DNA of 43,421 nucleotides from a bacterium (GTDB taxonomy: Bacteria; Electryoneota; Electryoneia; Electryoneales; Electryoneaceae), in contig JAHLLH010000011.1 of the NCBI GenBank assembly GCA_020444265.1, positions 90,290-133,710 of the forward strand, in the 5' to 3' direction. The translations under genes and the position numbers were made by a program. This document shows positions 36,915 to 40,520 of the stretch, one piece after another. Numbering within the stretch: position 1 is the first letter of the stretch; every line of letters starts with the position of its first letter. The notes under the pieces were generated by a model, which did no database searches, had not been told where the DNA came from, and saw nothing but the letters and a program-made list of their open reading frames with translations.

Positions 36915-37133
36915 TGCAGTTCGAGCGCGTTCAGGTCTTTTGTTTTCCACTATTTGCCCTCGTTTGCGGCGTGAGTTGGGGACAACAATTACACACTTAC
37001 ATGCTTCTCTTGTTACCCTCACGCAATCGACACACTTCTTGTTCATCTCCGGGGTCGTGTTGTGAGGTACTTGGAGCACCTTTTCATCGCCTCTCACATT
37101 ACGATTTTGGAACTTGAAGAGAAACAGATAGAT

Positions 37134-37149
37134 AACCAACATCTTGTGT
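37134..37149 (+). promoter_or_regulatory. Possible NrdR box
   Basis: AACCAACATCTTGTGT compared with the NrdR-box consensus acaCwAtATaTwGtgt: the inner ten positions match at eight and the right half is perfect. NrdR is the zinc/ATP-cone repressor of ribonucleotide reductase genes. Boxes usually come in pairs ~31 bp apart, and I see no good second box, so this is tentative. It lies ~65 bases upstream of the -35 of the putative nrdJ promoter. Confidence 0.35.
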
Positions 37150-37213
37150 TCAGCAAGCAGCAAAACCTCAGGATATGGTGGTTCTACTTTCTTCCAGCAG
37201 TGGGTATCGAGTA

Positions 37214-37242
37214 TTGACTAGCAAGAAGAGGTGATCTATCTT
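37214..37242 (+). promoter_or_regulatory. Putative sigma-70 promoter of nrdJ
   Basis: TTGACT at 37214-37219 (5 of 6) and TATCTT at 37237-37242 (4 of 6), spaced 17 bases apart. Transcription would start near 37249, giving a 5' leader of about 420 nt, just at the point where strong secondary structure begins. Confidence 0.5.
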
Positions 37243-37254
37243 GCCATCGCTCCT

Positions 37255-37620
37255 GGAAGACGATTCGTGAACAGGCAAGGGTAGCGAATCGGAGGCCGTC
37301 TGAATCTGGGGAGATTCACCGCCACTTTCAGGGAAGCGTGGGAGATGGTCAGGCGTCACGCACTGGTATCGTTGAAACGGGTGCACCAGCACTTGCCCCC
37401 TCTTGTTTTTCTTGGAAACGTAACAGTCGGTTATTACGGTACTTCCGAAAGGCCGCAAGGATTCGGGCACGAGTCCTCGCTCTCCTTGTGACTAGACGGA
37501 TGATCGTAGACGGAAGCTGAGTGAAAACACCACGCTAGCCTTTTGCCACCAGAACAAGCGGATGAAGGCCCACAGCCGGGACCTTTTACAACCCCTTCGG
37601 TACCCGGCAGTTACGGTCAT
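37255..37620 (+). ncRNA. Long structured 5' leader of nrdJ, candidate cis-regulatory RNA
   Basis: No protein frame is credible here, but hairpins follow one another: CGATTCG/CGAATCG (37261-37291); TGAATCT-gggg-AGATTCA (37301-37318); GCGTG/CACGC (37336-37361); CTGGT/ACCAG (37363-37389); CGTAA/TTACG (37419-37438); GGATTCG-ggca-CGAGTCC (37459-37476, one G-U pair); AGC-tga-GTG-aaaa-CAC-cac-GCT (37515-37536); GCCGGGACC/GGTaCCCGGC (37575-37608). The block 37511-37583 has GGAAGC, GTGAAAAC, GCTAGCC, GCCACC, GATGAAGGC and AGCCGGGACC in the order of the conserved cobalamin-riboswitch words, though degenerate. Structured RNAs ahead of nrdJ genes have been proposed by comparative work (an 'nrdJ' motif, from memory); identity with that motif is unverified. 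It could also be an independent small RNA. Confidence 0.5.
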
Positions 37621-37670
37621 TTCCTGATAATTGTTTACATGTGCTAACTTCTTATCCACCGGGAGCAGCT

Positions 37671-40520
37671 ATGCCAGCTAACACCAATACCTCGCTGCGT
37701 GAGTCGGGCGCAAAGAGCGACGCTAAGGTATTGAAAGGGCTTACCTTCAGCCCTTATTTCGCAAAGAAAGACGTGCATCCTTTCGATGATATCGAATGGG
37801 AAAAACGGGATGCAAGCATCACCAATGAAAAGGGCGAAGTGATTTTCGAGCAGAAGGGCATTGAGATGCCCAAGCACTTCTCCCAGCTCGCTACCAACGT
37901 TGTAGTTTCCAAGTACTTCAAGGGAACGATGGGTACCCCCGAGCGCGAAAACAGCCTGCGCCAGGTGGTCGGTCGTGTCGCGGACACGATGACCGAGTGG
38001 GGGATCAAGGATGGGTATTTCGCCAGCAAGGATGACGCTCAGGTCTTCCGTCATGAGCTTACCTTCCTGCTGGTGAACCAGTACATGGCCTTCAACAGTC
38101 CCGTCTGGTTCAACGTCGGTGTTGAGGATCACCCGCAGTGCTCCGCCTGTTTTATCAACAGCGTGGAAGACACCATGGAGTCGATCCTCGACCTGGCGAA
38201 AACCGAGGGCATGCTCTTCAAGTTTGGATCCGGGGCAGGCAGCAACCTCAGCCCGTTGCGCTCCAGCTATGAAGGGATGACCCACGGTGGCCAGGCCTCT
38301 GGGCCCGTGAGCTTCATGAAGGGTTTCGATGCCTTCGCAGGGGTCATCAAGTCGGGCGGCAAGACACGCCGCGCCGCGAAGATGGTCATCCTCAATGTCA
38401 ACCACCCCGACATCGTTGACTTTATCGAGTGCAAAACTCGTGAGGAACGAAAAGCGAAGTCGCTGATCAAGGCGGGATATGATCCCTCCTTTAATGGGGA
38501 AGCGTATTCCTCCATCTTCTTCCAGAACGCCAACCATTCGGTGCGTGTGACAGACGACTTCATGAAAGCCGTCCAGAACGACACCGAATTCAGCACCCGC
38601 AAGGTGACCGACCCGACCGTCGCGGTTGACACCTATCGTGCGCGCGACCTGATGAAGAAGATCGCCGAGAATGCCTGGGAAACCGGTGACCCGGGTTTGC
38701 AGTTTGACACGACGGTCAACGATTGGCATACCTGCGCGAAGACAGACCGGATTTACGCGTCCAACCCCTGCAGCGAGTACATGTTCCTCAATGACTCTGC
38801 CTGTAACCTCGCCAGCCTCAACCTGATGAAGTTCCGCAATGCGGATGGCACCTTCAACGTTGACGCCTACCGTTCGGCGGTCCGGACAACCATTACCGCG
38901 ATGGAAATCATCGTCAGCAATGCTTCGTACCCGACGAAGAAGATTGAGGAAAACAGCCACAAGTTCCGCCCGCTGGGCCTTGGCTATGCCAACCTCGGTG
39001 CGTTGCTGATGAGCCTCGGCCTGCCCTATGACAGCGCCGAAGGTCGTGCCTATGCCGCGACGGTCACCGCGCTGATGCACGGCGAAGCGTATCGAACCTC
39101 GGCGGAGATCGCCGGTGTGACCGGACCGTTCCAGGGCTACAAAAAGAACGCGCGTCCGTTCATGCGTGTTGTGCGTAAGCACGCCAATGCGGTCGAACTG
39201 ATTGACAGCAACAAGGTGCCCGCCGAGTTCCTCGATAAGGTTGAAAATGTCTACGACGAGATGATTCATCTCGGTGAAGAGAATGGTTTCCGCAACTCGC
39301 AGGTCACCGTGCTCGCCCCAACCGGCACCATCGCCTTCATGATGGACTGCGATACGACGGGCATCGAGCCGGACATCGCGCTGGTCAAGTACAAGAAGCT
39401 CGTCGGCGGCGGTATGCTGAAGATTGTCAACCGCACCGTCCCCATGGCCCTCAGGCGTCTGGGGTACGATGAGAAAACCGCGGAAGCGATCGTCCGTTAT
39501 GTCGATGAAAACGACATGATCGAAGGTGCGCCGGGCCTCAAGCCAGAACACCTGCCAATCTTCGATTGCGCTTTCAAGCCCTTCAAGGGTGATCGTTCCA
39601 TCAACTACATGGGCCACATCCGAATGATGGGTGGTGTGCAGCCCTTCCTCAGCGGAGCGATTTCGAAGACGGTAAACATGCCGAATTCGGCCACGGTAGA
39701 TGACATCCAGCATGCTTACCTCGAGTCCTGGCAGCTCGGTCTCAAGGCGGTCGCGATCTATCGTGACGGTTGCAAGGCGAGCCAGCCGCTGAACACGAAG
39801 CAGGATGATGCGAAGGAAGAGACAGCGGTCGCGAAGGCGCCGAAACGTATCGGACGTCGCAAGCTGCCGGATGAACGTACCTCGATCACCCACAAGTTCA
39901 GCGTCGGTGGGCATGAGGGCTACATCACGGTTGGTTGCTATGAAGATGGCAAACCGGGCGAGATCTTCATCACGATGGCGAAGGAAGGTTCTTCGATTTC
40001 CGGCCTGATGGACAGCTTCGCAACCTCGATTTCAATCGCGTTGCAGTATGGTGTGCCGCTGAACGTCCTCGTGCGTAAGTTCATCCACACCCGTTTCGAG
40101 CCGTCCGGCTTCACCAACAACCGTCAGATCCCCATCGCCCACTCCGTGATGGACTACCTCTTCCGCTGGTTGGCGTTGAAATTCCTGCCGCCCGAGGAGC
40201 ATGGTTTGTCCACCCCGGACAGCGAAGCGGATGTCCTCGAGGTCGAGGACGAAGCGGCTGCCCCGCAGCCGGTAGCGGTTGGAGCACCGAAGCCAGACAA
40301 CGGTAATGGCAACGGATCGTCAAAGGGTGAAGAGGATGCCTACAGTCAACGCATCATGGACGAGGCACGGAAGCTGATCGACCAGACCGACACGAACGAG
40401 CAGTTTGTCGCGGTCAACCAGTCGGATGCCCCACCCTGCTCCACCTGCGGTTCGATCATGGTCCGCAACGGCTCCTGCTACAAGTGCCTGAACTGCGGTA
40501 CCACGAGTGGCTGTAGTTGA
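37671..40520 (+). CDS. nrdJ: Adenosylcobalamin-dependent (class II) ribonucleoside-diphosphate reductase
   Basis: NrdJ makes deoxyribonucleotides with a thiyl radical generated from adenosylcobalamin, with or without oxygen. The 949-residue protein is the large class II form. It has NSPVWFNVG, the redox-region PQCSACF (C157, C160), FKFGSGAGSNLSPLRSS, NPCSEY with the presumed radical C367, SACNLASLNL, and APTGTIAFMMDCDTTGIEPD. After ~720 residues comes the extended C-terminal domain (KFSVGGHEGYITVGCYEDG...), then an acidic/glycine-asparagine linker and a zinc-ribbon-like end with six cysteines in PPCSTCGSIMVRNGSCYKC and LNCGTTSGCS. The ATG at 37671 has GGGAG five bases before it; an upstream GTG frame adds ten unconserved residues. 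No NrdAB or NrdD is here. The long leader suggests RNA-level control. Confidence 0.97.
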   Translation: MPANTNTSLRESGAKSDAKVLKGLTFSPYFAKKDVHPFDDIEWEKRDASITNEKGEVIFEQKGIEMPKHFSQLATNVVVSKYFKGTMGTPERENSLRQVVGRVADTMTEWGIKDGYFASKDDAQVFRHELTFLLVNQYMAFNSPVWFNVGVEDHPQCSACFINSVEDTMESILDLAKTEGMLFKFGSGAGSNLSPLRSSYEGMTHGGQASGPVSFMKGFDAFAGVIKSGGKTRRAAKMVILNVNHPDIVDFIECKTREERKAKSLIKAGYDPSFNGEAYSSIFFQNANHSVRVTDDFMKAVQNDTEFSTRKVTDPTVAVDTYRARDLMKKIAENAWETGDPGLQFDTTVNDWHTCAKTDRIYASNPCSEYMFLNDSACNLASLNLMKFRNADGTFNVDAYRSAVRTTITAMEIIVSNASYPTKKIEENSHKFRPLGLGYANLGALLMSLGLPYDSAEGRAYAATVTALMHGEAYRTSAEIAGVTGPFQGYKKNARPFMRVVRKHANAVELIDSNKVPAEFLDKVENVYDEMIHLGEENGFRNSQVTVLAPTGTIAFMMDCDTTGIEPDIALVKYKKLVGGGMLKIVNRTVPMALRRLGYDEKTAEAIVRYVDENDMIEGAPGLKPEHLPIFDCAFKPFKGDRSINYMGHIRMMGGVQPFLSGAISKTVNMPNSATVDDIQHAYLESWQLGLKAVAIYRDGCKASQPLNTKQDDAKEETAVAKAPKRIGRRKLPDERTSITHKFSVGGHEGYITVGCYEDGKPGEIFITMAKEGSSISGLMDSFATSISIALQYGVPLNVLVRKFIHTRFEPSGFTNNRQIPIAHSVMDYLFRWLALKFLPPEEHGLSTPDSEADVLEVEDEAAAPQPVAVGAPKPDNGNGNGSSKGEEDAYSQRIMDEARKLIDQTDTNEQFVAVNQSDAPPCSTCGSIMVRNGSCYKCLNCGTTSGCS

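Follow-up and report, generated by a model that had tools for sequence, protein, structure and literature searches.

Ribonucleotide reductase sets the dNTP supply of the cell. Among described control systems of its genes, the NrdR regulon, in which the widespread repressor NrdR uses tandem boxes at reductase promoters and which is exemplified by Streptomyces coelicolor nrdRJ, is closest to the locus analysed here. NrdR boxes follow a spacing rule of 15-16 bp (PMC12051234); they often overlap the polymerase site, a frequent but not defining feature, and NrdR kinks DNA strongly (PMC9110341). Two types of RNA element also invite comparison, namely the cobalamin riboswitch (RF00174) and the nrdJ RNA motif, an Rfam cis-element of Streptomyces (PMC8388888).

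The window, i.e. the whole stretch of DNA that was analysed (43,421 nt), corresponds to C15:90290-133710 of the host genome, the assembly of which amounts to 4.33 Mb and is 94% complete. It contains nrdJ, the upstream neighbour of which codes for a Spore_YtfJ-family protein. The nrdJ control region was compared with its counterparts in the family genomes having upstream DNA, six including the host, and the following features were delimited.

37035..37067, + strand: distal block, CTTCTTRYT-N7/8-GKGYC-NN-G(T/C/G)(T/C)GTGA-like
37134..37149, + strand: putative NrdR box 1 (AACCAACATCTTGTGT), 13 of 16 consensus positions
37166..37181, + strand: putative NrdR box 2 (CCTCAGGATATGGTGG), 10 of 16 consensus positions, 16-bp spacer to box 1
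37214..37242, + strand: sigma-70-type promoter TTGACT-N17-TATCTT with conserved spacer word AAGAAG
37243..37670, + strand: nrdJ leader, 428 nt, sequence otherwise hardly conserved
37458..37477, + strand: hairpin at conserved position, AGGATTCG-GGCA-CGAGTCCT, 8 bp, -11.0 kcal/mol
37480..37484, + strand: CTCTC island
37647..37653, + strand: ACTTCTT beside the ribosome site
37671..40520, + strand: nrdJ, class II (adenosylcobalamin-dependent) ribonucleotide reductase, 949 aa, no ATP-cone

Pfam search assigned Ribonuc_red_2_N, barrel and TSCPD domains to NrdJ and detected no ATP-cone on it. Since nrdJ is the single PF02867 gene of the host genome and no NrdD was found there, NrdJ is the sole ribonucleotide reductase within the 94% completeness of this genome. 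Because the ATP-cone is absent, NrdJ probably escapes overall shut-off by dATP, as judged from known biochemistry of these enzymes. If so, transcriptional control by NrdR would remain as feedback.

The promoter-like pair at 37214/37237 pointed out in the initial annotation was confirmed. It consists of -35 TTGACT at 37214 and -10 TATCTT at 37237, separated by a 17-bp spacer, and represents a sigma-70-type promoter kept with at most one mismatch before nrdJ in all six genomes. This conservation is confined to nrdJ and concerns no other gene. The AAGAAG word of the spacer is invariant across the six genomes. Transcription would start just after 37242.

Upstream of the promoter, two putative NrdR boxes are located. 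Scored against the NrdR box consensus, which we take to be acaCwAtATmTwGtgt, the pair 37134/37166 (32 bp start to start) reaches 23 of 32, the best value in the 43-kb window. Box pairs with a spacer of 15-16 bp and box 1 starting 78-80 bp before -35 are present in five of the six genomes, and in each of these five the score was reached by none of 300 shuffles. In the remaining genome (G004, locus L003), no recognisable NrdR pair precedes nrdJ; promoter and distal block are intact there. The form of the boxes fits the literature (PMC9110341), and the gene downstream of them codes for a ribonucleotide reductase. NrdR itself is encoded at C9:278400 (TIGR00244, 182.3 bits versus a cut-off of 124.65). 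Autoregulation of nrdR was rejected on the grounds that no good box pair precedes this gene.

The locus thus resembles S. coelicolor nrdRJ in having two 16-bp boxes with a 16-bp spacer in upstream position and NrdR encoded in the genome. It differs in several respects: nrdR is located apart from nrdJ, leaders are 428-479 nt long, a rigid distal block is present 99 bp further upstream, and the boxes lie wholly upstream of -35, box 2 ending 33 bp before it, so that the polymerase site is not overlapped. The last difference does not exclude the pair from the NrdR class, since such overlap is only described as occurring often. The box pair was recognised by sequence and conservation; by analogy with studied NrdR systems, NrdR-dATP/ATP tetramers would bind both boxes (37134-37181) at high dNTP levels and repress nrdJ. 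Since box 2 ends at a distance of 33 bp from -35, DNA bending or polymerase contact would be needed for repression. Sensing of nucleotides, which the initial annotation had suspected in the leader RNA, is better explained by the NrdR protein: the box pair starts at the first base of the interval (37134-37670) which that annotation had marked.

The distal block contains 15 invariant columns in the six genomes. Its CTTCTT precedes -35 by 176-179 bp in all six; in five, the distance to NrdR box 1 is 99-100 bp. Such rigid spacing of NrdR boxes and distal block suggests that both might take part in a shared nucleoprotein complex. Genome-wide pattern search of the family genomes retrieved good copies of the block at nrdJ only, matches elsewhere being weak and containing two mismatches. 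A regulon-wide element was rejected accordingly, copies at nrdJ alone having been found; a match on another contig of G003 turned out to be coding sequence.

CTTCTT words occur at 37035-37043, 37220-37228 (inverted) and 37648-37653 of the nrdJ control region. Read on the opposite strand, the AAGAAG of the promoter spacer matches the distal CTTCTT and, in four genomes, the CTTCTT at the ribosome site. These words might be sites of a looping DNA-binding protein, possibly aided by NrdR bending, although we know of no such CTTCTT-binding protein. This reading, which is compatible with other explanations, appears rather unlikely to us. The fixed register of the distal word argues for it, as do the occurrence of CTTCTTRYT only twice in 43 kb, both times in the nrdJ control region, and the kinking of DNA by NrdR (PMC9110341). 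On the other hand, the third copy reads CTTCTT in just four of the six genomes, and so short a word could belong to unrelated elements.

Ahead of the nrdJ ATG at 37671, some 430 nt contain no convincing gene, in line with the initial annotation. Measured from -10 to the start codon, the leader of the host comprises 428 nt, those of the five relatives 436-479 nt; its extent and start site are deduced from promoter and ATG positions. A long leader ahead of the B12-dependent reductase is therefore real, with length conserved in relatives. The same does not hold for its sequence. Identity among the six leaders is 41.5%, compared with 36-39% for shuffled leaders processed by the same alignment program, and two species of one genus share 41% in the leader versus 62% in the upstream control region. 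Leader sequence thus appears nearly random between species, even inside one genus. When the leader was searched as DNA against 60 relatives, it matched nothing besides itself. Candidate leader peptides, 34-aa frames following a purine tract in two genomes, were dismissed, as they are neither conserved in sequence nor present in all six genomes.

Overall folding of the leader is also at chance level, z scores being -0.63 and -0.54 in two runs against shuffles. In the set as a whole, chance level applies to five of the six genomes; z scores of relatives range from -2.2 (G005) to +1.3. Perfect stems of 6 bp or more number four in the leader versus 2.98 in the null, a count that 32 of 100 shuffles attain; for the best local fold, too, 32 of 100 shuffles do as well. 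The eight stems, several with perfect arms, to which the initial annotation had drawn attention do not exceed shuffles in number, in overall folding or in their best local member. RNAalifold applied to the leader alignment predicted a sole shared stem, a hairpin formed by CUUCUU and the ribosome site, without two-sided changes.

All six leaders retain two short words, CTCTC and ACTTC, while none of 200 shuffled sets contained any such 5-mer. ACTTC is situated near the start codon in all six genomes, in four of them exactly 24 nt before it. Low identity, both among the six genomes and within one genus, together with folding z scores scattered around zero would agree with the leader being a passive spacer, an old intergenic stretch kept by a far-upstream promoter, the islands of which are due to chance or represent DNA-level sites. 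We find this doubtful in view of leader length, which is held within 428-479 nt, of the retention of CTCTC and ACTTC in all six genomes, and of the hairpin described below, which was equalled by none of 200 shuffled sets in a family-wise comparison.

The requirement of NrdJ for adenosylcobalamin, the length of the leader and a 9-bp bulged stem before the ribosome site might be taken as signs of an adenosylcobalamin riboswitch (classical, variant or ON), with the final stem at 37575-37608 as expression platform. We consider this reading highly improbable. Scan of the whole 43-kb window with Rfam 15 gave no match, and the leader itself showed no meaningful match to cobalamin or any other Rfam family at E<=10, so that the degenerate cobalamin words seen in it are recognised by no model. 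A genuine cobalamin riboswitch elsewhere in the host genome scores 93.8 bits, so the method is effective here and it is the nrdJ leader that fails. The covariance-model core is missing from the nrdJ leader, and conserved core and stems of a cobalamin riboswitch are missing from the six homologous leaders. In short, the cobalamin aptamer of the proposed B12-sensing leader gained no support, having neither an Rfam match nor a conserved core. The final stem (GCCGGGACC/GGTaCCCGGC) does exist, with a predicted energy of -14.3 kcal/mol; it is not shared in the leader alignment, and its proposed function of expression platform is not supported, as the stem lacks conservation. Moreover, no reductase besides NrdJ was found, so that an OFF switch at its gene would deprive the cell of dNTPs.

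The nrdJ leader is therefore similar to the cobalamin riboswitch (RF00174) in being RNA before a B12-linked gene, and different in lacking model match and conserved core, the real riboswitch of this genome being located elsewhere. With the nrdJ RNA motif it shares, by name, the location at nrdJ; however, no match to the leader appeared in the scan of Rfam 15 as a whole. No Rfam riboswitch was detected at nine nrdJ loci from relatives or, at the gathering threshold, at 35 nrdJ loci of other phyla. Control by any Rfam family was thus dismissed, none being found at the control regions in the window, the leader and the 44 related nrdJ loci.

The single cobalamin riboswitch of the host was located at L115:1501-1702 (G000:C11:737988-738189). 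It is followed by genes for a secreted protein and a TonB-receptor-like protein, both named by reading of their sequences, which probably constitute a B12 uptake cluster.

CTCTC is found 237-279 nt after -10 in all six leaders, and in each of them a CTCTC is preceded, at a distance of at most 17 nt, by a perfect hairpin, different in sequence every time. Hairpin energies summed over the six genomes amount to -49.1 kcal/mol (p 5e-6 for random anchors). When the lowest sum for shuffled leaders was taken across all offsets and three anchors, none of 200 shuffles reached the observed one, the minimum being -41.0; this family-wise comparison concerns an element that was found after looking, in six leaders. 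Four of five inner pairs of the hairpin display changes on both sides. As each genome has arms of its own sequence, it is pairing that is under constraint rather than a DNA word of a protein. Compensatory changes, as expected of structured cis-regulatory RNA, were detected solely in hairpin 37458-37477, so that this site passes the check proposed in the initial annotation, as regards both its position and its paired changes among leaders of relatives, and the rest of the leader does not.

It is possible, though we propose it only tentatively, that hairpin and CUCUC form a new small cis-regulatory RNA tuning nrdJ after initiation, be it as a hairpin-stabilised pause, an attenuator or a target of trans-acting RNA or protein. 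Conserved position with compensatory changes and the presence of CTCTC in all six leaders, unmatched by any 5-mer of the shuffled sets, are consistent with this proposal. In five of the six genomes, 12-14 nt separate the hairpin from the island (counting the second CTCTC in G002), a distance similar to that at hairpin-dependent pauses. Against the proposal, the distance is just 2 nt in the window and there is no T-run. Search of other phyla for the hairpin-CTCTC combination yielded no case in which the hairpin reached -6 or a lower value, versus 1.5 in the null, i.e. no enrichment. That this previously undescribed element controls the sole reductase after initiation together with NrdR and the new upstream element in fixed register is a more far-reaching suggestion, which we regard as improbable in this complete form.

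As to the region as a whole, it is likely to represent an NrdR-repressed promoter of the sole reductase followed by a long leader that is not a B12 switch and carries hairpin-CUCUC acting in cis. As far as can be read from sequence, the control region is made up of a well-conserved NrdR-type promoter, an unusually long leader, a small putative RNA element and a new DNA block. Within the leader, hairpin-CUCUC and the pyrimidine tract by the ribosome site would most likely act in cis after initiation, the proposed effects being pausing, altered mRNA stability or ribosome access. Several points speak against this explanation: G004 has no NrdR pair, the boxes are wholly upstream of -35, the hairpin is weak in G005 (-4.3), and its distance to CTCTC in the window deviates from that in the other genomes. 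Rigid three-part upstream region and hairpin leader would provide layers of control for which we found no published description in class II enzymes.

In other phyla, 77 nrdJ loci (L033-L112) were examined, and 37 of them carry NrdR pairs with a score of 22 or more upstream of nrdJ, compared with 0.0 in shuffles. These pairs mostly lie 200-450 nt before the NrdJ match, with a median of 390 nt at scores of at least 23. Because long distance between boxes and nrdJ recurs across phyla, it is widespread in the NrdJ clade and not peculiar to the host; for the same reason, the leader is open to study in cultured Anaeromyxobacter.

Four nrdJ regions of Bacteroidetes/Ignavibacteria (L043, L045, L047, L051) share the blocks TATAACGGca.TATGTGGcaA.tGTCAA and TTGACTTGAGT...CTATATTCgC. 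Their leader measures about 265 nt and may hold a conserved hairpin. Finally, group II intron matches were observed near nrdJ at L008:4338-4419 (G001, downstream) and at L091:8257-8331.
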